Below, in pieces: positions 23,803 through 52,852 of a stretch of 64,000 nucleotides of DNA (position 1 is its first letter; each line of letters starts with the position of its first letter). The position numbers and the translations under genes are program-made. Below the pieces are notes generated by a model that did not search any database, was not told where the DNA came from, and worked only from the letters and a program-made list of their open reading frames with translations. Origin of the DNA: Verrucomicrobiales bacterium (lineage in GTDB: Bacteria > Verrucomicrobiota > Verrucomicrobiia > Verrucomicrobiales > DEV007); contig JAOFXR010000001.1 of the NCBI GenBank assembly GCA_028047635.1, forward strand, positions 1 through 64,000, in the 5' to 3' direction.

Positions 23803-24369
23803 ATGAATACTTCTGCTGAAAAATTTACGATCAAAACTTCCGCATTCTCGTTGATCGAAGTGGCCATCGCATTGGCCATCTTTTCATCGGGCATCATGCT
23901 GGTTTTCTCTATGTTGCCGGGCAGTCTCTACAACATGAAGGAGGCCTCCTCCCGTTCCGTCGAAAGAAGAATCGCCAAAAACCTCGTTAACGACCTAATG
24001 CTCAACGAATGGGATCGACTCCATCAGTTTGATAGCAAACAACTGGGGATTCGATACTTTGACTCACAAGGCATCGAACTTTCAGAGCATGGAATCGACG
24101 CCATCTTCACGGCAAGAATTCGCATTCATCCCCGTGACGTAAATCTAGACGCTAACAGAACACTAGAACGGGTTGCCATATCCGATTCTGAAGACTACGC
24201 GCTACCTGACGATAACAGGACAAGCAAGTCTACCAGCCAACACACAAGACGCATCACCATAGAGGTAACAGACGTCCCGCTTCAATCCTTCGATTTTGAC
24301 GATGTGAAGAACGCGAACCGCTTTCGGCGCTTCTCAACGGTTGTCGCAAACATGAAAGATATTGACTAG
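23803..24369 (+). CDS. Verru/Chthon cassette protein B (pseudopilin-like)
   Basis: A 188-residue protein with a prepilin N-terminus at about residues 14-34: SAFSLIEVAIALAIFSSGIM. This is a leader, then F-S-L-I-E with Glu+5, then a hydrophobic helix. The residue before F is Ala, not the usual Gly. The rest is soluble, with an Arg/Glu-rich ERRIAKNLVNDLM helix. Length and place fit protein B of the Verru_Chthon cassette families; by shape it resembles a GspI/PilV-type minor pseudopilin. First gene of a four-gene unit. The TIGRFAM naming is from memory and was not searched. Confidence 0.82.
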   Translation: MNTSAEKFTIKTSAFSLIEVAIALAIFSSGIMLVFSMLPGSLYNMKEASSRSVERRIAKNLVNDLMLNEWDRLHQFDSKQLGIRYFDSQGIELSEHGIDAIFTARIRIHPRDVNLDANRTLERVAISDSEDYALPDDNRTSKSTSQHTRRITIEVTDVPLQSFDFDDVKNANRFRRFSTVVANMKDID

Positions 24370-24389
24370 CTCAATCAATAGTCTCAGCC

Positions 24390-25430
24390 ATGAAGAGAAA
24401 CAGAGCCAGCGACTATCTCCTCCGTCCAAGCGAAGCATTCTCACTCGTGGAAATGCTCGTATCAATGGCCATTCTTTCCATCATAATGGTCTCCGCAGCA
24501 ATGGTTCTCCGAACGACTCAGGAGGTTTGGACGACTTCCTGGGACAGAACCTCCCAGTTCAGAGACGCTCGCCTCGCTTTCGAGCAGATGAGCCGGAACC
24601 TGAGTCAATCCACACTCAACACTTATTGGGACTACGACTATACCGGAAGCAACACGAAGACGGGCGCACCCAACGAATATCGTCGAAACTCCGAACTTCA
24701 TTTCTTCACTGATGCGGCGTCACGCTTCATGGAAAGCAAACAAGCAGTGACTCACGCCGTTTTCTTTCAAGCCCCTCTCGGCTATACCAGAGAGGAATCG
24801 TATCAGCGTCTCGATGGCCTGCTCAACGGTATCGGTTACTTTGTCGAATACTCGGACAATGAGTATGGGAAACCCAGGTTCATCATCGCAAGGGAAAAGG
24901 GAAAGCGGTCGAGCTGGAGATTTCGACTTATGGAATTCCAGACGCCGACCGAATACAACACCGTTTACGAAGCGGACGAAGCGAGCAGTGAATCAGCAGG
25001 GCAAATCAGAGAATGGTTTTCATCTGAGCAAATAGACACCTACAAACGCCCGCTAGTCGACAATATTATAGCGCTGATTATTTCCCCTCAATTGAGCCGT
25101 GAACCCGGAACAGCTCCAACTAATGCTCTAAGAATTGCTCCTTTGTATCGCTACGATTCGCGCAACGAAGGCAATCCGGATACGTTACACGTTCTTCCAC
25201 CACTAGTGAAAATTACGCTGGTGGCCATCGATGAAGAAGCGGCGATCCGACTCGAATCCCAAACAGCCCCGGGAACCATCCCCCGCCTTGTCGAGCCGCA
25301 GTGGTTCAGAGAGGCTAAAAATTACGGCAAGGATCTGGAAGCACTAAAACAATCACTTACTGACCGCACAATTAATCATCGGGTCTTTTCAACCACCGTG
25401 GCAATTCGCTCTGCAAAATGGAGCACTTAA
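24390..25430 (+). CDS. Verru/Chthon cassette protein C (GspJ/PilW-like)
   Basis: A 346-residue protein with a prepilin-type start (EAFSLVEMLVSMAILSIIMV, about 13-32), again Ala before Phe and Glu at +5. The helix is followed by FRDARLAFEQMSRNLSQSTL, a pattern typical of GspJ/PilW minor pseudopilins. A long soluble domain follows, including HAVFFQAPLG and the late PRLVEPQWF. It starts 20 bp after B and overlaps the start of D by 13 bp, so the genes are translationally linked. Confidence 0.82.
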   Translation: MKRNRASDYLLRPSEAFSLVEMLVSMAILSIIMVSAAMVLRTTQEVWTTSWDRTSQFRDARLAFEQMSRNLSQSTLNTYWDYDYTGSNTKTGAPNEYRRNSELHFFTDAASRFMESKQAVTHAVFFQAPLGYTREESYQRLDGLLNGIGYFVEYSDNEYGKPRFIIAREKGKRSSWRFRLMEFQTPTEYNTVYEADEASSESAGQIREWFSSEQIDTYKRPLVDNIIALIISPQLSREPGTAPTNALRIAPLYRYDSRNEGNPDTLHVLPPLVKITLVAIDEEAAIRLESQTAPGTIPRLVEPQWFREAKNYGKDLEALKQSLTDRTINHRVFSTTVAIRSAKWST

Positions 25431-26053
25431 AAACGAAATCCCCCTATTGCGCAAGAAGTTCGGGAGCGTTTTCACTCATTGAAACCCTCGCCGTACTCAC
25501 CATCGTGTCGCTTTTGCTTTCGATGAGCGTGCTGGGGATAAACAGCATTGCTGACTCCACTGATTTAACCAGCAACGGGGATCAAATTGTTAGCCACCTC
25601 GTGCAAGCTCGGCAACGAGCTCTCTCGGACAATGCGCATGTCGAAGTCAGAATCTATCCCCCTCTGGAGAGCGCTGCCGCAAAGCAATGGATGATGGTTC
25701 TAGCCCGACAAGGTCTCGAAGATTCCTCCTCAGCGTTGCAGAAACCGCTCATCCTTAGCGATAGTATCGCGATCAGCAAAAGCCCGGTATACTCCTCCTT
25801 GATTGCTTTGAGAGAAAAACGGCAAGACGAGACCCTGATGTCCCGTGCCTCGGGACCCAAAAGGGAATATCTAAGTTTCCGGTATTTCCCCGATGGCTCA
25901 ACCAATTTGCCCCTTAATCCCAATGGAGATACGTGGCACCTAACAGTCACTTCCCGCAAATATATTGAGAGAGCGGAGGCACCTCTTCCCGATAATTTCT
26001 ACACGATTCGTATCGACCCATTCACCGGTGCGGTGCGCGCTTTCCGCCCCTGA
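25418..26053 (+). CDS. Verru/Chthon cassette protein D (GspH/FimT-like)
   Basis: A 211-residue protein with a prepilin-type start (SGAFSLIETLAVLTIVSLLL, about 15-34), Ala before Phe and Glu at +5. The following QIVSHLVQARQRALSDNAHV is characteristic of GspH/FimT-like pseudopilins (helix then V-x-V strand). The C-terminal FYTIRIDPFTGAVRAFRP also fits the GspH pattern ending in a D-P-x-T-G turn. It overlaps the end of C by 13 bp and ends two bases before A. Confidence 0.82.
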   Translation: MEHLKTKSPYCARSSGAFSLIETLAVLTIVSLLLSMSVLGINSIADSTDLTSNGDQIVSHLVQARQRALSDNAHVEVRIYPPLESAAAKQWMMVLARQGLEDSSSALQKPLILSDSIAISKSPVYSSLIALREKRQDETLMSRASGPKREYLSFRYFPDGSTNLPLNPNGDTWHLTVTSRKYIERAEAPLPDNFYTIRIDPFTGAVRAFRP

Positions 26054-26055
26054 CA

Positions 26056-29000
26056 ATGAAACTGCGCCATCGATCACAGCGTCAGAGAAACCACAAGAGA
26101 TCTGTGGGAGCCGCACTTATTTCCATTCTTCTCGTGATGGCTCTGATGGTCATTCTCGTGATCGCCATCGTTATGCTGGCGCAGGCAGAAAGACAGTCAG
26201 CGGCAGTATATGAAAATCAGATCTCATCGCAGGATCTTTCCGAAGTCGCCACTAATTTAGTAATCAGCCAGTTGCGCTCCGGCACGGTCGGGAAATCTGA
26301 AACATGGGCAAGCCAGCCCGGTGCCATTCGGAAGTATGGAGAGAATGGCGACTTTCTCGCCGGTTATAAACTCTTCTCGGATGACGACATGATCGTCTCG
26401 GACGAGGAAGAACTTCTCGAGGATCTACCGCCATCGAACTGGCAAAATGAAACAGAGCACTTCATCGATCTCAATGCCCCCTCGATGATGGATAAAGATC
26501 TGATATTTCCTATCATTGACCCAAGAGCGCAAGGAACAGTCGAAGGCTTCGAAATTTCCGAAACGATCGAGGGAACCGTTCTCGCAGATGACAATACAGC
26601 CCGACTTCCGATGCCAGTGCGGTGGCTCTACATGCTCGAAGACGGGACCACTGGACACCTCGACCCGAAGACGGGAAAGTTTGCGGGGGTGCGCGCGAAC
26701 GGACAGCGGATTGCGCCAGACAAGGACAACCCTATTATCGGGAGAGTCGCATTTTGGACCGATGACGAATGTTCGAAGCTCAACATCAATACCGCCTCTG
26801 AGCCAACCTTTTGGGATACTCCCAAATCCGTCTCACGGGAAGATCTTTGGTATGGAAGAGCTCAGCCAACCCAAAAAGAGTATCAACGCTTTCCAGGCCA
26901 TCCTGCCACAACAGCCCTGTCCCCGGTTCTTTTTGGAAACGAAGTCATTCGAAAAACGATAGCCGAACTGGATGGTGATTCCATGCGCACCTCACGAAGA
27001 CTTTCCCGTGACATGCAAAAAAACAGCGAGATCAAGGAGGTCATTTACGACCTGATTCCCCGTGTGAACACCGGTGGTTCTGAAGGTGCCACCCGTGTCA
27101 ATGCGCGAGGCGACCTCGGGGTGGAACCCGACGAGGATCGACTCTACGCCAGCGTTGATGAGTTTATCTTCAAAGCTCCCAGGCTACAAAAACAAGCAGG
27201 CGAAAGAGAAAGCTCTGAAATTGTAAGCCGCGATCTTCTTGAGAAGTCGCGCTTTTTCCTAACCGCGCACAGCCGTGCCCCCGAACTCAACCTATACGGG
27301 CTGCCACGAGTCAGTATCTGGCCAACAACAGCGGATCAAGACAGCAATCAATATTTAACAGGCTTCGACAATTTAATTCGCTTTTGTTCAACGACTTCAT
27401 CCGGGCAGCCCTACTATTTCACACGAATGAATGCTGACAGTCCCACTGATGACTGGAGAAAAATCCGCCGAAATCAGGAAGTTTATGGCTATCTGAAGGA
27501 GCTCACCTCACAACCGGTTCCCGGAATAGGAAAAGACTTCGCTTCCAAATTCGGCCCTGACCGGGAACAAATTCTTACTGAGATTTTTGACTATGTCAGG
27601 ACGACAAATCTCTTTGATGACAACCATCCAAAATTATTCTACACCGGAAAAGAAAGCGGAGCGAACAGGCAAACCCAGTTCACGAACGGTCGCACCCTTT
27701 ACTGGAGCAAAGGAGAACTAAAAGAGAATTTTAACGGCACACATCAGGGGCACGGTCAGGTTGCTCCCATCCAAATTGGGGACACCATGGGATTTGGTCG
27801 CTTCCCTACCTTCTCGGAGTTCTCTATCGCTTTGATTTGCTGTGCCTCCCCCGGCAACTCCCCCCGCCCACAACGAACAGGAGGCGAACGTATTGTTGAC
27901 TCCGTTCCCATGCGATTGCCCCCCGGCTACGAGGGTGGAACCACGAGAATTCACTACACGAACTTCCCTCCGCTGGATCCCCATCCCAAGCAGGTGAATG
28001 TCCGGGGCCTGCCCGTTGAAAAATGGCCCTTTCTTCCAGTGCGCGATCGAAAAGACAGACTCAGGCATGCGAATGACCCGAATCACCCCGGATACGACCC
28101 ACTGAACTGGAATCATGCCCTACCGGTTTGGAGAGGATGGCACACCGGGCTCACCGATCCGACGAACTGTAAAAAGGAGGAGATCGTAGTGCAGCTTTGT
28201 CTCATTTCGGAAGCGTTCATTCCCGGGCAAGGCTGGTCTTCAATCAACTCGAGAATGCGAACGCACTGGACTGGACTGGACTCTCTTCGAATTAACAAGG
28301 AAGAGCTTGGACTTCAGCCCATCATCAAAAGGAACCGCTCCGGCAGCCTGAGTTCAGGATTTCACGGCCGCGCATGGGGAGGTAATGCCGGATTTCGTGG
28401 CAACACGGATTTCGGATTCGTAAGCGAACCGATCAAGATTGATATCACTTCAGAAAAGATCGAATTCAGTCAGGAGGAACCCTTGATTCTTGATGTCTTC
28501 TGCGAGCACAACGGTTACACAAGCCAGCTGATTCAACGTATCAACCTGGAATTTCCAAACGCAGATTTCCCGGTTCCTGCTATTCAGAAAGAAGGGACGA
28601 GAGAACGCCGTGGCAGACCGGAAACCTCAGCTAGGTTTTGGTGGTCTTTTAACAATTCTAAAATCAACAATGCTCGAAAGTTTCCGGATCCGGATCCCCG
28701 CCCCGATATCCCCTGGCACGTGAATGGACAGGCCCTCGTTGAAGGGAGAAAAAAATCGAGAACGGGTCGAGTACTCCAGGACAATAAATTGATCGGAGCC
28801 TACTTCTGGGGTGGACGGCTTACCGGCAAAGGCTCGAACCCCGGCTCACCGTGGACGGCGACTAACAATCACAGCGACGACGCCAAAACGTTGGACCCTC
28901 GCTGGCGCCCCGGTGTTCATAAAGGCGGTCTTTGGAGAGAAGGCGATGTAGTGAGGAGCTTGAACCCGTTCCACGGTAGCGGCAATCAAGTCGCCGGTGG

Positions 29001-30426
29001 CGATTTCAGGCTGATTGCCGCGAGTCAAAATGTGGGGGTAGAAGTCTTTCGACCGCATGCTGATTACTTCAATTCCAACAACCCGATAGATCATACTCTT
29101 TTCCTCCCTGCAGGAGCCCACTACTATTGGAGATTCGGAAACGCCGACTTACACAAAACACCCGACGGATTCTATCCCCGATTCGATTATCCTGTAGAAA
29201 CTCAGCTCACCGATGCCAGCTACCACTTTTCCAAATTCCCCGATTTCCCAAGAGGATTCTCATCTTCCGAAGGGATGACCCCTTCCCAACCGATCTCGAG
29301 CGGCGACTTTGACAATGGCGTTGCCCTCACCGTAGACGGCCCCTACATCAACAAGCCGGATGGTGGAAACCGTTCGAATCGCTGGGGAGTTAGCCGCGGG
29401 GATGCTTTTTCAGATGTTCCCACGCCCTACTTTGACAACAACTGGGGACAGGCAATCCAGGGGCCCGGCTACTTTTCCCCCAACCGCCAGATCAGTTCAC
29501 CGGTGATGTTTGGTTCGCTTCCCACAGGAGTGAAACGAAACATCCCCTGGCAAACGCTCCTCTTCCGTCCGCAACCCTGGGGACACCCCGCTGATCCCGG
29601 TAGACCGCATCCCGGTCATGAAGGCCTCAAAGACCACTACCTTCTCGATCTTTTCTGGATGCCCGTAGTCGAGCCCTACGCCATCAGCGAACCCTTCTCC
29701 ACCGCTGGCAAAATCAATCTCAACTACCAAATTCTGCCTTTCACCAATGTAAAACGAGCGACCGGACTTCATGGCGTGATGAAAGCAGAAGAGATGCTGA
29801 TCATTTCAGATCAAGATGCCGCACACTATAAGAACTGGGACCACGCTCTCGCCGACTACTACGTCCCCCCCCTTCCCGACCAGGTCAACTTACGTCACCT
29901 TATCGATATTGATGAGACACTGAAACAATTCGACGATCGATTTTTGAACGGGGAAATCTTTCGCTCGGCAACCGAGATTTGTGAAATGCATCTAATCCCT
30001 TTGCGAGAGCGTCCCGTAATGAGTTCATTGAACATTCCCGTGCCTGAGGAAGGCAAAAAAATTCAACCTCGCATTGATCAAATTATGGAAAGTTTCTGGG
30101 AGAACCACAGCCCCACCGGAGACAATTCCAGAGAGCGCCCCTACTCAAATATTTACCCACGACTGACAACGAAGTCGAACACGTTCAGAGTCCACGCCAG
30201 GGTTCAGGTCCTCAAAAAAGCAAGAGACAGCGACCACGAGACCTTTAACCCTAACAAAGACACTGTTTCGAGTGAATGGCGCGGTGAAACGCTTTTGGAA
30301 CGTTACATCGATCCTAACAATGAATCAATTCCTGACTACGCAAAATCAGGCAATGTCCTGAACAAGGAAAATCTCGATCGTTTTTATCAGTATCGAATAC
30401 TCTATCAAAAACGGTTCGAGGGCTAA
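26056..30426 (+). CDS. Verru/Chthon cassette protein A, very large GspK-like protein
   Basis: A 1456-residue protein. Its N-terminus, SVGAALISILLVMALMVILV (about 15-34), is a Gly-ended leader and hydrophobic helix without the +5 Glu, as in GspK/PilX. EVATNLVISQLRSG follows. WTDDECSKLNINTASEP (about 235-251) resembles the GspK block around L-N-x-N-T, and a second GKINLNYQ lies near residue 1217. The bulk is soluble, aromatic- and Pro-rich, and about four times the usual GspK length. It is presumably exported on the tip of a pseudopilus with B, C and D. No ATPase, platform or secretin gene lies beside it. Family identity with cassette protein A is from memory. Confidence 0.83.
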   Translation: MKLRHRSQRQRNHKRSVGAALISILLVMALMVILVIAIVMLAQAERQSAAVYENQISSQDLSEVATNLVISQLRSGTVGKSETWASQPGAIRKYGENGDFLAGYKLFSDDDMIVSDEEELLEDLPPSNWQNETEHFIDLNAPSMMDKDLIFPIIDPRAQGTVEGFEISETIEGTVLADDNTARLPMPVRWLYMLEDGTTGHLDPKTGKFAGVRANGQRIAPDKDNPIIGRVAFWTDDECSKLNINTASEPTFWDTPKSVSREDLWYGRAQPTQKEYQRFPGHPATTALSPVLFGNEVIRKTIAELDGDSMRTSRRLSRDMQKNSEIKEVIYDLIPRVNTGGSEGATRVNARGDLGVEPDEDRLYASVDEFIFKAPRLQKQAGERESSEIVSRDLLEKSRFFLTAHSRAPELNLYGLPRVSIWPTTADQDSNQYLTGFDNLIRFCSTTSSGQPYYFTRMNADSPTDDWRKIRRNQEVYGYLKELTSQPVPGIGKDFASKFGPDREQILTEIFDYVRTTNLFDDNHPKLFYTGKESGANRQTQFTNGRTLYWSKGELKENFNGTHQGHGQVAPIQIGDTMGFGRFPTFSEFSIALICCASPGNSPRPQRTGGERIVDSVPMRLPPGYEGGTTRIHYTNFPPLDPHPKQVNVRGLPVEKWPFLPVRDRKDRLRHANDPNHPGYDPLNWNHALPVWRGWHTGLTDPTNCKKEEIVVQLCLISEAFIPGQGWSSINSRMRTHWTGLDSLRINKEELGLQPIIKRNRSGSLSSGFHGRAWGGNAGFRGNTDFGFVSEPIKIDITSEKIEFSQEEPLILDVFCEHNGYTSQLIQRINLEFPNADFPVPAIQKEGTRERRGRPETSARFWWSFNNSKINNARKFPDPDPRPDIPWHVNGQALVEGRKKSRTGRVLQDNKLIGAYFWGGRLTGKGSNPGSPWTATNNHSDDAKTLDPRWRPGVHKGGLWREGDVVRSLNPFHGSGNQVAGGDFRLIAASQNVGVEVFRPHADYFNSNNPIDHTLFLPAGAHYYWRFGNADLHKTPDGFYPRFDYPVETQLTDASYHFSKFPDFPRGFSSSEGMTPSQPISSGDFDNGVALTVDGPYINKPDGGNRSNRWGVSRGDAFSDVPTPYFDNNWGQAIQGPGYFSPNRQISSPVMFGSLPTGVKRNIPWQTLLFRPQPWGHPADPGRPHPGHEGLKDHYLLDLFWMPVVEPYAISEPFSTAGKINLNYQILPFTNVKRATGLHGVMKAEEMLIISDQDAAHYKNWDHALADYYVPPLPDQVNLRHLIDIDETLKQFDDRFLNGEIFRSATEICEMHLIPLRERPVMSSLNIPVPEEGKKIQPRIDQIMESFWENHSPTGDNSRERPYSNIYPRLTTKSNTFRVHARVQVLKKARDSDHETFNPNKDTVSSEWRGETLLERYIDPNNESIPDYAKSGNVLNKENLDRFYQYRILYQKRFEG

Positions 30427-45652: not shown

Positions 45653-48331
45653 CTACTTCTGGTAGTTAGGCATTGGGCCGGGAGCGAAAGTCGTCGGCGT
45701 CGTGATCGGCGGGCGAGGAACTGGCTCGGGAAGAGGCTCATCTTGAATACGACCGTGGATCGGCATTCCTGAAGGATCCATCAACTGTGCCTTAACAAAT
45801 ATCGTGAGGTTCTTCTTCAAGTGCAACTCAATGCTTGAACGAAAGAGGCGACCGATCACAGGAAGGTCACCAATAATTGGGACTTTATCCTCAACGTCCT
45901 GAATGTCTTCGCGAATCAATCCACCGAGAGCAACGGTCTGCCCATCCCAAATCGTGACCTGAGTTGAGACCTTACGAGTATCAAACACAGGCATCTCGAT
46001 CTTGTTCGCAGTAAGAATCACCGGAGCAGTAATACCGAAAGCGTTAGTTGAAGTGGTCTGAATCGGACTACCATAGTTAATGAAGCCACTGAACTCAACT
46101 ACCTCAGGGGCAAGGCTCAAGTCTACCGTATACTCATCCGCACCAAGGACTGGGTCGACCTCGAGAGTAACACCGGTATTCCGAGTCTCGAAAGCTGTCG
46201 GCGTTGCAGGAGTGACGGGGAAACCACCACCAGTGGTTGTGCCGCCACCAATACCACCAGTAGCAATACCACCACCGAACTGGTTGGGAATCTCTGGTGG
46301 ATCATACTCAGTTGGGTAGATGAATTCCCTCACTACTTCAACCTTAGCTCGCTGACCGCTCCGGGCCATGACCGATGGAGCAGAAAGTAAGTCGGTTCCT
46401 TTGCGCTGATTGAGCGCACGAATCATCAACTGAAACTGAGGGTCAGTGAAAACACCCGAGATACCAAAGACCGCTGGTGCCAACTGAGATCCGGGAAGTC
46501 CGGTTCCTGCAGCCGAAGCAATAAGAGCGTCGATCGAATTACCGGAAATTCCCTGCGCTCCAGAACGAAGACCAGCCGTTACCGGATTCGTTCCCGCGGG
46601 AAGACCGCCAGGAATATTAGGTCCGTAATCAGTCGCCGCGCCGCGTCCAACTTGGTTACCATTGGTTCCACCAGCACCGAAAACACGAGGTTGTGAACCC
46701 AAACCCAAGTTAAAAGGACCAAGGAGCCAATCGAAACCTAACTCTTCAGTGTCATTCTCAGCGATTTCAACAAAACTCGAAGTGATGTAGATTTGCTTCT
46801 CAACACCGGTGATAATCGAATCAATGTAAGCCTCTACAAGCTCCATTTGATCCTGAGTATTACGAACGATCAGCTGAGAGTTCGCGGGGTTGTAGATCGC
46901 ACTTGACCCGGTGCTGAAAGTAATACCCGCACTCTCAAGAATCTCTTTTGCTGTCTTCCGGCGATTTGGAATTCCGGCACCGCCCGCATCACCTGGATCA
47001 GCAAATGGATCCGCTGCAGCGCCACCGCCACCGCCACCGCCACCGTCACCCATGGAGAGGAAGGTAGGAGGAACCACATAAGTATTGGTGAAGAGATCAG
47101 CATCAGGCTGAGAAAGAGGGATTACCAAAACGGAGTAGCCCTCAACCTTGTATTTCAAGTTCGCAAGAGAGGTCGTATAGCGAAGAGCCTCAGCGATTGG
47201 AACACTACCCAACCGAAGTGTGATGCGAGTGTCAGCAACACCACCACCGGTGCTCATACCGCCACCGCCATCGCCATCACCACCACCGAACCCAAAGCCA
47301 TCATCGCCAGCGGGAGCTGCTGCTGCCGGAGCTGCTGATGCGGCACCAAGTACTCCCACATCGAGAATGATGTTAATTCCTTTTTTCCCAGGATCAGTCT
47401 CAGAGATGTCGAGCTCAACGCTTCTCTGCTGGATAAATTCGAGAGCATCCTTCAAAGGCGTATCCGTAAACTCGATACTTGGAATAATGATTGTCTTAAG
47501 CTTCTCTTCAATACGTCTGATATTGGTAGTGGCCATGTCCTGCGGAAGACCGATTTCAGGAGCAATATCAAGACCGCTTGGAACAGGTGACTCCCATCCA
47601 GCCGCAACCTGTCGAAGCATCTTCGAGCGGGTGTGGTTGTAAGCAGCGTCATAATAATTCATCCGCTCACGCTCGCCTCTCTCCTGACCACGTCTTGCAG
47701 CGGTGTTGTAAGGATCATCGCTGAGTGCCTTGTGATACTCACGGTCAGCACGATCATAATCACCGATGTCAATATAACCTGAACCCGTCTTCAAAGCCAA
47801 CTTCACCCGACGCACACGCTCAAGGTGTGTTGGTGTCAAAGCCGGCGAATAATAATCAGGATCATTCAACTGCTCAAGCAATCTCTTTGCATCGATGTTA
47901 TCAGGATCAACGCTTGGCTGAAGGACTTCTTCGACCAATGCAATTGACTCAGGATAACGTCCTTCGTCAGCACGATCACGAGCTAGCAAAACGCTGGCAC
48001 GGGCAAACTGTTTAATGTAGGCCCTGCGACGAGGCTCTGTCATCGGTGCATCCGGAAGAAGATCCAACGCATTGCGATACTGATCAATTGCCCCCTGGTA
48101 GTCACCGTCAGACATCAACTGGGATCCGCGCAAAGCAGCTTCATCAGCTTTCTTCACACGCTCCTGAAGTCGAATCACATAATGTGAAGCGATTGATGGA
48201 ACGCCGCTTCCTCCGCCACCGTATCCGTTAGAACCAGCAGTGGCTCCGGAAACACAGGCAAATGAGGTAATCGCGCATAAACATCCCATTAGGGAATACG
48301 TGATTGTTCGGTCTGTAGCTCTCATGTTCAT
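45653..48331 (-). CDS. Secretin-family outer-membrane protein (Amuc_1098/PilQ-like)
   Basis: An 892-residue exported protein; the ATG at 48325 is an equally good start. The signal peptide runs to about 30. TPR-like helices follow (about 55-240; SDGDYQGAIDQYRNALDLLP, DYDRADREYHKALSDDPYNT). An N-type domain with SIEFTDTPLKDALEFIQQRS and SVPIAEALRYTTSLANLKYK comes next, interrupted by two Gly-rich runs. The C-terminal secretin core (about 600-850) has LSAPSVMARSGQRAKVEVV and TVALGGLIREDIQDVEDKVP, leading to PVIGRLFRS. The order with the four upstream genes matches Akkermansia Amuc_1098-1102. It likely forms the pore for a type IV pilus-like machine. Confidence 0.92.
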   Translation of the reverse strand: MNMRATDRTITYSLMGCLCAITSFACVSGATAGSNGYGGGGSGVPSIASHYVIRLQERVKKADEAALRGSQLMSDGDYQGAIDQYRNALDLLPDAPMTEPRRRAYIKQFARASVLLARDRADEGRYPESIALVEEVLQPSVDPDNIDAKRLLEQLNDPDYYSPALTPTHLERVRRVKLALKTGSGYIDIGDYDRADREYHKALSDDPYNTAARRGQERGERERMNYYDAAYNHTRSKMLRQVAAGWESPVPSGLDIAPEIGLPQDMATTNIRRIEEKLKTIIIPSIEFTDTPLKDALEFIQQRSVELDISETDPGKKGINIILDVGVLGAASAAPAAAAPAGDDGFGFGGGDGDGGGGMSTGGGVADTRITLRLGSVPIAEALRYTTSLANLKYKVEGYSVLVIPLSQPDADLFTNTYVVPPTFLSMGDGGGGGGGGAAADPFADPGDAGGAGIPNRRKTAKEILESAGITFSTGSSAIYNPANSQLIVRNTQDQMELVEAYIDSIITGVEKQIYITSSFVEIAENDTEELGFDWLLGPFNLGLGSQPRVFGAGGTNGNQVGRGAATDYGPNIPGGLPAGTNPVTAGLRSGAQGISGNSIDALIASAAGTGLPGSQLAPAVFGISGVFTDPQFQLMIRALNQRKGTDLLSAPSVMARSGQRAKVEVVREFIYPTEYDPPEIPNQFGGGIATGGIGGGTTTGGGFPVTPATPTAFETRNTGVTLEVDPVLGADEYTVDLSLAPEVVEFSGFINYGSPIQTTSTNAFGITAPVILTANKIEMPVFDTRKVSTQVTIWDGQTVALGGLIREDIQDVEDKVPIIGDLPVIGRLFRSSIELHLKKNLTIFVKAQLMDPSGMPIHGRIQDEPLPEPVPRPPITTPTTFAPGPMPNYQK

Positions 48332-48416
48332 AATTCTTTACAGCAAAGGGTGTTTCAAATCCTAATATGCCGATGCAGCGGCAATCAAAACCAGAATATC
48401 ACCCTAATGTCAACTC

Positions 48417-49388
48417 TTAGTTCTTCTTAATTTCCACTGTTTGCTCAGGGGCATCTCCAGTTTGGTAGGAGATAACAACTGAGCCTTCGTTTACCTTTAC
48501 GACTCGATACTTCGTCTCCGAATCAATCGTAAGGTTAAATGCATCTCCTTCTTTCACATATTCTTTGAATGAAGGATCCAACTTAAACTGCATGAGAGCA
48601 AAATAAGTGGGAATGACTGTCTCAACGCCTTTCACGAGTTGATAATTACCCCCTTTGGGAAGATATGTCACTGTTAGGACTGCGGCATCGACCTCGATAC
48701 CAAATTGGTTTTTAGCCTTTTTCTCCTCGAAAGAATCGAGTCGGAACTGCCCATCGTCAGATGTCTCGCCTACCCTGAGATAAAAGTTCTCGTCCTGAGG
48801 CCACTTCCGCGTCCTTACACGCTTAATCTGAAAACGCTCCTGATCAGGACGAGCTGAGAATTGCAGCGTGTATTCCTGCTGCTCACGTCCTCCAAAGAGG
48901 AGCTTATCAGCATACGGCGGGTGCGAGTCGGGATCAGTGGGCGCTGTCTTAGCATCCCACTCTTCGAGGCTGGTATAGCCATCACCGTCCGGATCATGAG
49001 CCAAAACGCCCGCTGACAGAAAATCCAAATTATTGGTGATCAGCCAGGTATTGGTAACCGGCGGACGAAGCGGCTCCTCTTCAGGATCCAACATGTCATA
49101 TAACTTCCCTTTTGCTTCGACAATGGGAATCGAAACAAACAGAGGCACAGGCTTTGCGGCTCCAGATCCTTTTCCAACAGTCTCCCAAACCAGCTTACGC
49201 TGAACATAGCCAGTCGCAATTTTAGCAACATTCGCCTCCGTTTCCGCGATCTCATTATTCGGAACCGCCGACATCAGCTGAAAGCGCTCCGAGAAGCCAC
49301 TCACCTTCATGAAAAAGAGAGCTGACAGGCCAATAACGACCAATGCCACTGCAACGAGCAAGTATTTATCCCAGGGTTTTGCGTTCAT
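48417..49388 (-). CDS. Amuc_1099-like membrane protein of the pilus locus
   Basis: A 323-residue protein with one N-terminal membrane helix (LLVAVALVVIGLSALFFMKV, about 10-29) and a periplasmic body. An EF-hand-like segment DPDGDGYTSLEEWDAKTAPTD (starting about 131) resembles thrombospondin type-3 calcium loops. Beta-rich C-terminal domains end in VKVNEGSVVISYQTGDAP. The start overlaps the stop of the Amuc_1100-like gene (ATGA), so translation is coupled. By position it is the equivalent of Amuc_1099; a PilP-like link between inner membrane and secretin is inferred. Confidence 0.82.
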   Translation of the reverse strand: MNAKPWDKYLLVAVALVVIGLSALFFMKVSGFSERFQLMSAVPNNEIAETEANVAKIATGYVQRKLVWETVGKGSGAAKPVPLFVSIPIVEAKGKLYDMLDPEEEPLRPPVTNTWLITNNLDFLSAGVLAHDPDGDGYTSLEEWDAKTAPTDPDSHPPYADKLLFGGREQQEYTLQFSARPDQERFQIKRVRTRKWPQDENFYLRVGETSDDGQFRLDSFEEKKAKNQFGIEVDAAVLTVTYLPKGGNYQLVKGVETVIPTYFALMQFKLDPSFKEYVKEGDAFNLTIDSETKYRVVKVNEGSVVISYQTGDAPEQTVEIKKN

Positions 49389-50401
49389 CGTTTTCTAGTC
49401 GTCTTTTTGTCATCTCCCGCTGCGCCGGCTTTATCAACCACTTCATCCGGGTTCACAAATCTGGCGATATCAATAATCATGAAGATCTCAAGTTGCTCCT
49501 GCCCCATGATGACACGGGCGTCCTTGTTTGCAGGGGTAAAACCCGCCTCCTTGGCCTTCTCGGCCACCGTTTCCTCGCTCTCGGTTTCATATCCCCACTC
49601 GAGAAGCATCTCGTAACCAGCGACCTGCTTTGTAGACTGGTCTTCAAATACAGGAAAAGCACTACCATCCTCTGATGTAAGCTTCGGAGCCCCTTCCGTA
49701 ACCTGGTTCTCCACTTTAAGAACACGAACGATATAAAAGTAACTGTCGTCATTCGCGATTCGATTCACGAATGACTGAAAAGAATCATGAGGCGCAACAA
49801 AGCGCAATCGCACTGGATACTTATGAACTGCAACCCCTTCATTGTTAGGCTCAGTTCCCGGCTCTTCCCCCGGAATTAAATCACGCTCAAAAGTCCCCAA
49901 CGAGGTAACACCCGCAGTGACCAGCTCTCGCAGCATGTTATCAATCGCGTCGAGCTCGTAATCGAGAATCGAGACCATCTCAGGAGGAGGCAAATTGGCA
50001 CTGTAACGCTCGAAACCTAGCTGAAACTCCTCTACCGTATCAACAACCATGCCGCCTGCCTGCGAAAACGTGCGAAACTCTTCAACGCGCTTTTTGACGA
50101 ACTGCTGAAACGCCGTGTTCTCCAAATCAGCCCTGAGAGGCTTCTGGAAAGTGTTGAGACTCTCAAACAATCCCTTCACTGCGGCATCATACTCCTCCGC
50201 CTGAGCCTGAACGGCGTCTTCATTCTCCTCATTGGGATAAGGGACTCGAGACTCCAAACTTTCGATGGTGCCCACCCTCGTATTCCAACTGGAATCAGCC
50301 TCGGAAAACTCATTAAACTTTGAGAAGGCGAAAAAACCTGAACCACCAATGAGGAGAGCAGCAAAGACACCAAAAACAATTAACCAAACCTTAGAATTCA
50401 T
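49385..50401 (-). CDS. Amuc_1100-like membrane protein of the pilus locus
   Basis: A 338-residue protein with an N-terminal membrane helix (VWLIVFGVFAALLIGGSGFF, about 5-24) and a long coiled-coil (about 30-130). A PilO-like alpha-beta domain follows: VHKYPVRLRFVAPHDSFQSF, then IANDDSYFYIVRVLKVEN. PMxxVLDYELDAIDNML-type helix pairing is seen near 150. The C-terminal 40 residues are charged (DKAGAAGDDKKTTRKR). Position and topology match Amuc_1100, the Akkermansia outer-surface protein known for TLR2 signalling; whether this protein shares that activity cannot be told. Confidence 0.85.
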   Translation of the reverse strand: MNSKVWLIVFGVFAALLIGGSGFFAFSKFNEFSEADSSWNTRVGTIESLESRVPYPNEENEDAVQAQAEEYDAAVKGLFESLNTFQKPLRADLENTAFQQFVKKRVEEFRTFSQAGGMVVDTVEEFQLGFERYSANLPPPEMVSILDYELDAIDNMLRELVTAGVTSLGTFERDLIPGEEPGTEPNNEGVAVHKYPVRLRFVAPHDSFQSFVNRIANDDSYFYIVRVLKVENQVTEGAPKLTSEDGSAFPVFEDQSTKQVAGYEMLLEWGYETESEETVAEKAKEAGFTPANKDARVIMGQEQLEIFMIIDIARFVNPDEVVDKAGAAGDDKKTTRKR

Positions 50402-50419
50402 ACTGATTGCTGGAAAATA

Positions 50420-52162
50420 TTACTTGCTGAATTTTACCTGATTCGCCTCCGGAAGAGGAAGGGTCATTTTGAAAGGGTAGGCATACCGGTCATCACTCGT
50501 CCCGGCGTCTACTTCTATCACTTCGCTAATATCAACCTCCTTCAAGTCGAAGAACGTGTCCGTAGACTCATCAGCAGCATCATCCTTGAGCCTCTTGAAG
50601 TATTCATAGACCACGTTATTCCCGTTGCTATTTTCGCGCCAGAGTCCCTTGATCAAAAATGAGTCGACTCTGCGCTCATCCCCTGCCCCTTCGACATTAA
50701 GCTGGCTATCGCCATCTCCGATCAAAGGCTCACCAGCGGACAAAGGCTCGATTGTAGTGAGGAATAAGAGATCGTCCTCCATTTTGGAGGCCAAATAGTT
50801 GGACATTCGGACCCAGTAGATTCGATGAATCACCGCATCCTTGTAAGGAATCATTTTTCCATCGATCTTAGCGATCTCGGCCTTAGATAGCTGAATAGCA
50901 TCATTGCGAGCCTTCAGATCATCGGCCTTCTTCTCAATCTCAGCAGCTTTCAGAGAAGTGAGCTCTGCTCCCTTCATGAAAAAGAAACCCATTGCCGCAA
51001 GCAGCGCGGTCAATGCCAACACAGAGAGAATCAACGCAAGCTTGCGCTTAGCGAGAATTTGCTCTTTTCGAACTGATTCTGGAATCAGGTCAATTGCCAT
51101 GGGCACCTCGCCAGCCCGATGAAGAGCACTTCCTACAAGATCACCAAAACGGTGTGCATTTTCAGACACAAACGCCGAGTCGATCCCCTTACCGATCGCC
51201 ACGTTTCTGAACGGATTAAAATGATCGACAGGGAGGTTTAGCTTCTCGGCGAAAAACTCGCGAATAAAGGGCAACCCGGAAGTCGCACCCGCGAGAAGCA
51301 ACATGACAGGAGCCCCGCCACCTTGTTGACTGCGGTAAAAAGTGATCGTCCGCATAATCTCTGAATGCAGCCGTGTAAGCGAATTACGCACCACTTTCGA
51401 AATACCGGCGATTTCGGGATCTTCATGATCAGCGTAAGCACCGCCAAGAGCAACGAAACCATCATTGATCTTACGCAAATCAGCCGCCGCAAACTCGGTT
51501 CCGAACTCTTTCGCAATTGCACGACTGATGTCAGCGCCGCCGATCTTCACCGTCCTGATGAAAGAGGTTCCCCCTTCACGGAAAATCATATCCGTCGTTC
51601 TCGCACCGATATCGACCAACAAGATGGTTCCTTCGTAATCCGAGTAATTGTAGGCAAGCGAGTTAAAAATAGCCACGGGCGAAACCTCAGCGCCGGCAGA
51701 TTTCACTCCGGACGCATTAATCATCTCGTCAATCTCATTGAGCTCATCCGATTTTACGGCAGCGAGAACCACCTCCACCTCAATGTCATCAGGGTCACCC
51801 ATGAGCTGGTATCCCCAGACCACTTCGTTGATGGGATAAGGAACCTGCTGCTGTGCCTCAAACTCGACAATCTGATCTACTTGCTCCCCGTCGAGAGCAG
51901 GAAGACTTGCGAACTTCAGTAAAACAGGAAATGAAGTAACCACATAAGAGACCTTCTTCCCCTTAGCCTTCAGAGCCGCAACAATCTCAGTCAAGGCCTT
52001 CGCCCCCTGAGCATTTCTCGCCATATCCTCGGCAGGATCGCCAAAGAAATCACGATGCTCCAGTTGTTCCAGCTTAACGCTACCATTTGCGCCCTTGCTG
52101 AAAACGGCACCGGTGATCTGCTGAGATCCCAGCGTCAACGATATAATTCGATCATCTGCCAT
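50420..52162 (-). CDS. PilM-like actin-fold ATPase fused to a PilN-like membrane segment (Amuc_1101-like)
   Basis: A 580-residue protein. Residues 1-345 form a PilM/FtsA-like actin fold: SLTLGSQQITGAVFSKG (phosphate 1 region), TILLVDIGARTTDMIF (phosphate 2) and VMLLLAGATSGLPFIREF (adenosine motif). A membrane helix follows near 375-397 (LALILSVLALTALLAAMGFF), then a coiled-coil and a periplasmic alpha-beta domain as in PilN. Fusing PilM and PilN into one chain differs from proteobacterial pilMNOP. It is 18 bp upstream of the Amuc_1100-like gene. Confidence 0.9.
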   Translation of the reverse strand: MADDRIISLTLGSQQITGAVFSKGANGSVKLEQLEHRDFFGDPAEDMARNAQGAKALTEIVAALKAKGKKVSYVVTSFPVLLKFASLPALDGEQVDQIVEFEAQQQVPYPINEVVWGYQLMGDPDDIEVEVVLAAVKSDELNEIDEMINASGVKSAGAEVSPVAIFNSLAYNYSDYEGTILLVDIGARTTDMIFREGGTSFIRTVKIGGADISRAIAKEFGTEFAAADLRKINDGFVALGGAYADHEDPEIAGISKVVRNSLTRLHSEIMRTITFYRSQQGGGAPVMLLLAGATSGLPFIREFFAEKLNLPVDHFNPFRNVAIGKGIDSAFVSENAHRFGDLVGSALHRAGEVPMAIDLIPESVRKEQILAKRKLALILSVLALTALLAAMGFFFMKGAELTSLKAAEIEKKADDLKARNDAIQLSKAEIAKIDGKMIPYKDAVIHRIYWVRMSNYLASKMEDDLLFLTTIEPLSAGEPLIGDGDSQLNVEGAGDERRVDSFLIKGLWRENSNGNNVVYEYFKRLKDDAADESTDTFFDLKEVDISEVIEVDAGTSDDRYAYPFKMTLPLPEANQVKFSK

Positions 52163-52234
52163 GATTTACTTTTCCAAAAGGAATACGGAGCGTGAAAAGA
52201 TTAAGAATGAGAAACTAAAAATGACGAGACGCGT

Positions 52235-52852
52235 CTACTTCTTCCCAGCCTGGGCGTAGCGGTCAATCCAAAGCAAAGCGAAAGGCGTCTCCCCTTTCCC
52301 CATAACTCCCGGAGCGGGGGCAGTTCCCGCCGCCCAGAATTTGGTACCGGTTGAGGTCGACCCGCCGATAATAACCCCGTTGAAGTATATCTCAACACCC
52401 ACCCCAGCTACAGAGCTCGGCTGGAATCGGCTGTAATCACCAGTGATCTGGCCAAGAGTGCTTGGGGAAACGTAGGCGCTTGAATAATACTCCTCACCCG
52501 GAACAACGTTGATGTGCTTCACATCTCCAGTGAGAATCCTCACACTACCCTTCTCATCTCTAAATCCTGCGTAGTAGCGAAAAAGAAGCTCAGGAACCAC
52601 TTTGTCCTCGTCTCCCTTCACCTCGAACTCCACTTCCATCTCAAGCCATTCTTTAGGATTAGGAATATTCTTGTTTTTAACCCCTGCTGCCTGGAATAGG
52701 GGCGTGGGCTGAGCCTCAACCTCGATATCCTTAACCTTAATATCTCCGTTACTGAGCTGAATCTGGGACATCCCATCGGTGGAAAATCCGAGAACCCCAA
52801 TCAGGGCGACTAATGCAAGTGTTGATTTCATAATTGCAAGTGTTGATTTCAT
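52235..52852 (-). CDS. Amuc_1102-like exported protein, first gene of the pilus locus
   Basis: A 205-residue exported beta-rich protein. The signal peptide is unusual: MKSTLAI is directly repeated (MKSTLAIMKSTLALVALIGV) by an exact 21-bp tandem duplication that also doubles the start codon. Either ATG (52852 or 52831) gives a usable signal. The mature region has PNPKEWLEMEVEFEVKGDED and ELLFRYYAGFRDEKGSVRIL, a single beta-sandwich-like domain. Position equals Amuc_1102. The spacing to the PilM-like gene is 72 bp. Confidence 0.82.
   Translation of the reverse strand: MKSTLAIMKSTLALVALIGVLGFSTDGMSQIQLSNGDIKVKDIEVEAQPTPLFQAAGVKNKNIPNPKEWLEMEVEFEVKGDEDKVVPELLFRYYAGFRDEKGSVRILTGDVKHINVVPGEEYYSSAYVSPSTLGQITGDYSRFQPSSVAGVGVEIYFNGVIIGGSTSTGTKFWAAGTAPAPGVMGKGETPFALLWIDRYAQAGKK

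Follow-up and report, generated by a model that had tools for sequence, protein, structure and literature searches.

Among the closest described systems is the tip of the type II secretion system (T2SS), GspH-I-J-K (Xcp U-V-W-X, Eps, Pul), whose four prepilin-type subunits are of classes matching those of the gene cassette described here. Several tip sets per machine are described in reports on Myxococcus minor pilin/PilY1 clusters 1–3 and on Kil Tip1–4 (PMC7541494, PMC12075869). Since Myxococcus provides precedents for several tips on one machine, the kind of system we propose is already known. A third point of comparison is the PEP-CTERM/exosortase system, whose proteins recur beside cassettes in genomes like that of one relative, G178. 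The Verru_Chthon cassette families themselves are NCBIfam models whose names give no function, and both their reading as pilin classes and their linkage to PEP-CTERM genes are new here. In the open-access literature, with subscription papers mostly outside the scope of the search, Verru_Chthon was not found named, nor were PEP-CTERM, exosortase and pseudopilin found together; PEP-CTERM and minor pilin came together in a Geobacter transcriptome study alone. Haft et al. count 65 PEP-CTERM proteins in V. spinosum, and the word 'cassette' is absent from the main text of that paper (PMC1569441).

The window, the 64,000-nucleotide stretch of Verrucomicrobiales DNA that we analysed, holds at 23803-30426 four co-directional ORFs in the order B-C-D-A, which an earlier note had picked out as one such cassette:

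23803..24369, + strand: B, candidate GspI/PilV-class minor (pseudo)pilin, 188 aa; AFSLIE at 23842-23859
24390..25430, + strand: C, candidate GspJ-class minor (pseudo)pilin, 346 aa; AFSLVE at 24435-24452
25418..26053, + strand: D, candidate GspH-class minor (pseudo)pilin, 211 aa; AFSLIE at 25466-25483
26056..30426, + strand: A, giant GspK-like putative tip protein, 1456 aa; Glu-less prepilin helix and ~1400 aa

B and C are separated by 20 nt, C and D overlap by 13 nt, and D and A are 2 nt apart. All four lie above the curated cut-offs of the corresponding NCBIfam Verru_Chthon cassette models (B, TIGR02598, 74 bits against 51.4; C, TIGR02599, 331.2 against 256.5; D, TIGR02596, 106.5 against 70; A, TIGR02600, 982.2 against 332.3) and are direct, adjacent members of these families. 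The cassette is thus a real, named four-gene family, and its parts resemble a minor pilin/pseudopilin tip. Probably, B-C-D-A is a four-subunit tip of this kind. All its subunits would be matured by prepilin peptidase; GspI-like B, GspJ-like C and A, an enlarged GspK-like cap, would form a tip trimer, and GspH-like D would link the trimer to the major pilin. Assembly would then be primed by the tip and carried out by a machine whose genes lie elsewhere; the likeliest is a Verrucomicrobial type IV pilus-type system that would combine an Amuc_1098-1102-like envelope complex with a locus encoding two adjacent PilB-type ATPases, a GspF/PilC homologue and a pilin. With several cassettes in a genome, these few machines would have alternative tips to choose from. 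Such a reading gives families with function-less names a testable role.

The prepilin helices that the earlier note saw in B, C and D are borne out: each opens with AFSL[IV]E, and a prepilin regular expression applied to the first 60 residues of window ORFs of at least 60 aa picks these three alone. No further prepilin-like ORF occurs in the window, which agrees with the note's remark that no major pseudopilin is nearby. The residue ahead of Phe in the motif is Ala instead of Gly; this is usual in the family, because Ala stands there in 20 of 77 B, 50 of 96 C and 44 of 80 D homologues that pass both the score threshold and the regular expression. As in the T2SS minor tip, Glu5 is present in the H/I/J-type subunits (B, C, D) and absent from the K-type one (A).

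Class resemblance was tallied from homologues matching each model at E ≤ 0.01, after some candidates had been dropped before counting (57 of 66 were kept for A, 71 of 73 for C, 57 of 77 for B and 58 of 80 for D). Every one of the 58 D homologues matched GspH TIGR01708, with ComGD (56), GspG (47), GspJ (5) and GspI (5) behind it, and Pfam GspH was matched by 9. The 71 C homologues matched ComGE more often than GspJ (55 against 47), followed by ComGF (46), GspI (12) and GspH (2). Among the 57 B homologues, XpsI (35), PilV (33) and GspI (26) were well ahead of XpsH (2), and none matched GspH or GspJ; for window B itself, PilV and GspI are the top families outside Verru_Chthon, both under cut-off. 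The window proteins all fall short of the equivalog cut-offs (GspK 28.8 of 130 bits, GspJ 21.9 of 64.85, GspH 27.8 of 80, GspI 19 of 44.35), and their matches to GspH-K lie for the most part in the N-terminal helix or directly behind it. Because the matches are mainly helix-proximal and none reaches its cut-off, we speak of class resemblance, not of orthology. At the family level, the resemblances of D to GspH, C to GspJ, B to GspI/PilV and the N-terminus of A to GspK hold, and the tip reading of the earlier note is supported in part. The classes that the earlier note chose for B, C and D (GspI, GspJ and GspH) stand in the family tallies.

A PDB sequence search with the C profile returned pilin helices alone (E 0.02-0.7). 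An AlphaFold2 model of C (71 sequences; pLDDT 90.9, pTM 0.85) had 3cfi_K, 2ret_H, 5g23_B, 2ret_F and 5g23_D as its first five PDB matches, with E-values of 3e-3 to 9e-3, so that no match reached E ≤ 0.001, probabilities of 0.97-1.00 and an rmsd of 7.7-10 Å. We take 3cfi_K, 2ret_H and 2ret_F to be EpsJ chains, judging from chain length. The model matches the chains of the EpsI:EpsJ entries with probability 0.99-1.00 and a TM-score by target of 0.50-0.55, and GspJ 3ci0_J ranks seventh (probability 0.69). The 5g23 chains are TTHA1219, and Tt1219 is reported to be closest to XcpW/GspJ (PMC5131608). The predicted fold of C therefore appears GspJ-like, at modest E-values, and the likeness to GspH/I/J/K structures on which the earlier note had staked its reading is found in this model.

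A begins KRSVGAALISILLVM, with no Glu at +5. It also has the L-N-x-N-T block that had been likened to GspK, as KLNINTA at residues 241-247, and a similar GKINLN block at residues 1218-1223:

26761..26796, + strand: DDECSKLNINTA block of A, resembling the GspK INxN motifs; 13-column profile match better than all 100 column shuffles
29701..29730, + strand: second block of A, TAGKINLNYQ; 12-column profile match to the GspK INxN motif better than all 100 shuffles

The match of A to GspK NF037980 (E 8.6e-7) spans residues 18-88. Aligned with HHalign, profiles of the A family (57 sequences) and of GspK (26, from E. coli K-12 and Verrucomicrobial proteins) correspond over the first 87 positions (95.3%, 2.3e-8, the value for one comparison). 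Alternative local matches of A to GspK are short and have probabilities of 0.8-11% (225-235/212-223, 223-235/99-111, 874-885/208-220 and 992-1013/276-297); the last three are colinear with GspK. This colinearity is ambiguous, because the first INxN block of A scores better against the second INxN motif of GspK than against its first. The score of the post-helix region alone was reached in 3 of 100 shuffles and is not outstanding. Cutting out the insertion of A to extend the alignment brought no gain, with the first 88 columns aligned as before. A 1079-residue A homologue was modelled (pLDDT 85.2); it gave no PDB match at E ≤ 0.001 and no convincing whole-model match. GspK 3ci0_K ranked sixth (E 0.54, 95 columns) with a probability of 0.38, the highest among the best 50 matches listed. 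No Pfam domain over cut-off is found in A, and a PDB sequence search with its profile yielded a single irrelevant match (E 0.6). Most simply, A would be a protein of the GspK type enlarged by a very long insertion, although the structural matches of the model speak against this; its length is ~4.5 times that of E. coli GspK (1456 against 327 aa).

The size of A also bears on a reading in which the cassettes are adhesin or sensor heads of a type IV pilus, A is an adhesive cap, and neighbouring PEP-CTERM proteins are co-expressed matrix proteins, not cargo. Precedents exist in the three Myxococcus PilY1/minor-pilin clusters on one machine and in the interchangeable Kil tips, as the two reports describe them (PMC7541494, PMC12075869). 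By E-value, the first PDB matches of the A-homologue model are to the fimbrial adhesin CfaE; at E 0.11-0.17 and probability 0.05 these are no evidence of homology, fold matches are weak throughout, and the lack of any Pfam domain over cut-off in A also counts against this reading. We rate this reading, which is compatible with multiple tips on shared machines, as a real contender at somewhat under an even chance. Neither the four cassette proteins nor the product of the upstream gene matched the PilY1 family, and the large head of the cassette, unlike those of Myxococcus and Kil, is part of a GspK-type protein.

The secretin-bearing locus that the earlier note placed at 45.6-52.9 kb is real and starts ~15 kb downstream of the cassette:

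45653..52852, - strand: candidate shared machine, with Amuc_1098 secretin, 1099, 1100, 1101 (PilM-like) and 1102 (NCBIfam)

The Amuc_1098, Amuc_1099 and Amuc_1102 families score above cut-off, Amuc_1100 exactly at it (180 bits) and Amuc_1101 below it (585 of 650 bits). By inference, this locus would be a natural candidate partner of the cassette. On contig C1, from which the window comes, no PF00437 match reached E ≤ 0.001, in keeping with the absence of a nearby ATPase in the earlier note; the genome (G000) is 63% complete.

Copy number and linkage can be compared in G178 (8,220,857 bases), which we take to be V. spinosum. It has 24 A proteins over cut-off, one of which is interrupted by an in-frame stop towards the C-terminus, and 3 more below; 8 PF00437 ATPases are listed of 14 matches. 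Such counts of copies against ATPases, which the earlier note had proposed to compare, fit a shared machine. None of the 32 G178 clusters, defined by A and C matches and including A-only, C-only and below-cut-off ones, lies within 20 kb of the 8 strong T2SSE-family (PF00437) positions listed of 14; the nearest is at 21 kb. As 1.2 would be expected by chance, a non-significant difference, this shows absence of linkage, not avoidance. By this measure, the G178 clusters are not each linked to assembly genes of their own, a linkage that would have refuted the note. The cassette stands apart from other T2SS genes, with no ATPase match on contig C1, no other prepilin-like ORF in the window and none of the listed ATPases within 20 kb in G178; in this it differs from T2SS, as it does in its multiple copies and sub-cut-off scores.

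Adjacent pairs of strong PF00437 matches are present in 23 of 24 genomes, the exception being the incomplete G000. The G178 pair adjoins a GspF/PilC homologue and one GspG/PilA-like pilin; no minor pilins were seen in the 20 kb read around it, and an extra regular-expression match there resembles a LysR-type regulator. Two further G178 loci, parts of which were read by eye, are T2SS-like: in each, several prepilin-like ORFs accompany an ATPase match and a GspK match over the full length (73.9 and 59.1 bits, cut-off 130). These loci weigh on the idea that duplication has scattered ordinary minor pseudopilin sets of T2SS, and that the cassettes serve no special purpose. The cassette does contain every one of the four GspH-K classes, as that idea would have it, but the T2SS-like loci already have pilin sets of their own, a GspK match included, and the oriented linkage to PEP-CTERM genes described below is left unexplained; we find it improbable. 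In the window's family, f1, PF03934 (GspK), a short model that may miss members, matches in 3 of 10 genomes, always in frames of at least 569 aa, and G000 has none, so that the cassette may be the sole GspK-like tip in the family. A lone GspE-like ATPase in G000 (L044) and a cassette in G173 (L194) are flanked by a gene pair similar by eye, presumably SpoIIM/RDD-like.

Another cassette of G000 lies on contig C68 and runs A-B-C-D. Across the bacterial order, a C protein scores over cut-off in 40 of 57 genomes; the remaining 17 are all 15 of family f2, which we take to be Akkermansia, and both of f45. One f2 genome has a divergent D-B-C cluster (L199:4412-7055; 55, 39 and 48 bits) and, elsewhere, a 1385-aa A-like protein (L198:3361-7518, 19.5 bits). 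In a phylum-wide sample, A is over cut-off in 3 of 144 genomes, and some A match at E ≤ 0.001 occurs in 81, mostly to the N-terminal helix alone. Six genomes (G045, G039, G048, G015, G023, G093) have several long ORFs, mostly ~1000-1500 aa, that match the N-terminal helix of A only (14-26 candidates per genome, 4 scored), which suggests further giant GspK-like families in other lineages. One A match, at 957 kb in G078 (L040), had no labelled cassette ORF under greedy ORF choice and was left out. With up to 24 copies over cut-off, and with neighbours that are often PEP-CTERM proteins, the cassettes go beyond Myxococcus and Kil; read as tips, they would be an extreme example of tips multiplied far beyond the number of motors. 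More than 20 copies in some relatives, away from motors and often by giant secreted proteins, suggest exchangeable tips on shared machines, and sharing or exchange of this kind would best account for the findings.

The pattern of PEP-CTERM neighbours in relatives is new here and goes beyond what the earlier note found; it links putative pseudopilus-type tips to PEP-CTERM proteins. In G178, giant ORFs adjoining cassettes carry TIGR02601 repeats and PEP-CTERM tails. With gene extents approximated from open-frame lengths, a same-strand PEP-CTERM gene lies within 2 kb of 15 of the 27 A-containing clusters (three of them with A below cut-off), and one on either strand within 2 kb of 18. Random placement (3000 draws) gives 1.31 (maximum 6) and 2.56 (maximum 9), and rigid rotation 1.25 on the same strand (maximum 6 in 5000). 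A same-strand PATR repeat lies within 3 kb of at least 8 of 32 clusters, among the repeats listed (150 scored of 503 candidates), against 0.74 expected (maximum 5 in 5000). Across pooled loci, a PEP-CTERM-like tail is found in 26 of 117 deduplicated same-strand neighbours against 15 of 731 ORFs further off, some of which may be spurious (odds ratio 13.6), and 36 of 117 neighbours against 70 of 731 reach 700 aa. In a first set that was not deduplicated, Pfam PATR is matched by 12 of 40 neighbours upstream and by 5 of 42 downstream. An initial regular expression for PEP-CTERM tails also picked false positives (e.g. L144, L160) and is not behind these counts. In L035:5458-11682 (- strand), a single open frame runs from a PEP-CTERM repeat protein into A, with no intervening stop codon and an internal Met ahead of A's helix, which may reflect fusion, an internal start or an error.

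This linkage invites the reading that the cassettes are cargo-dedicated pseudopilus tips, each a receptor head that carries a neighbouring giant PEP-CTERM or PATR protein through the outer membrane or attaches it to the cell surface. The oriented PEP-CTERM and PATR excess in G178, the tails in pooled neighbours and the uninterrupted L035 frame all favour it, and substrate recognition is reported to depend critically on the XcpU/V/W/X tip (PMC6211770). Linkage could, however, mean co-regulation, and spurious ORFs may be among the 731 of the background; for 9 of the 27 G178 clusters, HMMs detect no PEP-CTERM gene on either strand within 2 kb, and 49 of the 62 PEP-CTERM matches in G178 have no same-strand cassette within 2 kb, 13 supplying the same-strand cases and 16 the either-strand ones. 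Exosortase is present in 9 of 9 f3 genomes searched but had no match in 5 of 24 (G000, G144, G183, G147, G153), all with cassette matches; the first three are the genomes of the window's genus that were searched, G000 being incomplete. A cassette that is part of PEP-CTERM processing is unlikely, given these five genomes. Also against dedicated cargo, the window cassette has no PEP-CTERM neighbour. The gene upstream of it encodes a CxxCH haem protein; pooled loci show no enrichment of CxxCH neighbours (3 of 117 against 26 of 731), so that such a protein was rejected as a general cassette partner. We hold the cargo reading tentatively, as possible but doubtful; it is compatible with multiple tips on shared machines. 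Because the window cassette has no PEP-CTERM neighbour and the three genomes of its genus searched no exosortase match, cargo pairing would be a lineage elaboration, and dedicated cargo in expanded lineages is an attractive possibility. A bolder version would give each genome more than 20 interchangeable heads, many of them matched to a giant PEP-CTERM protein of their own, with each head selecting one cargo for a common secretin; it strikes us as rather unlikely, but if true, such a paired-head library would be a route for exosortase-processed proteins to the cell surface.

Among 18 family-f1 cassette loci (L180-L197), the window haem neighbour has only weak partial matches (L186 and L190, 34-41% over 87-148 aa). 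Some family-f1 cassettes (L033, L058, L181) adjoin aroA and cytochrome genes, the latter presumably alternative complex III. In L148 and L149 (G178) and L193 (G173), gene pairs stand beside or between cassette genes; we take them to be a DUF1501-like gene and a planctomycete-type cytochrome.
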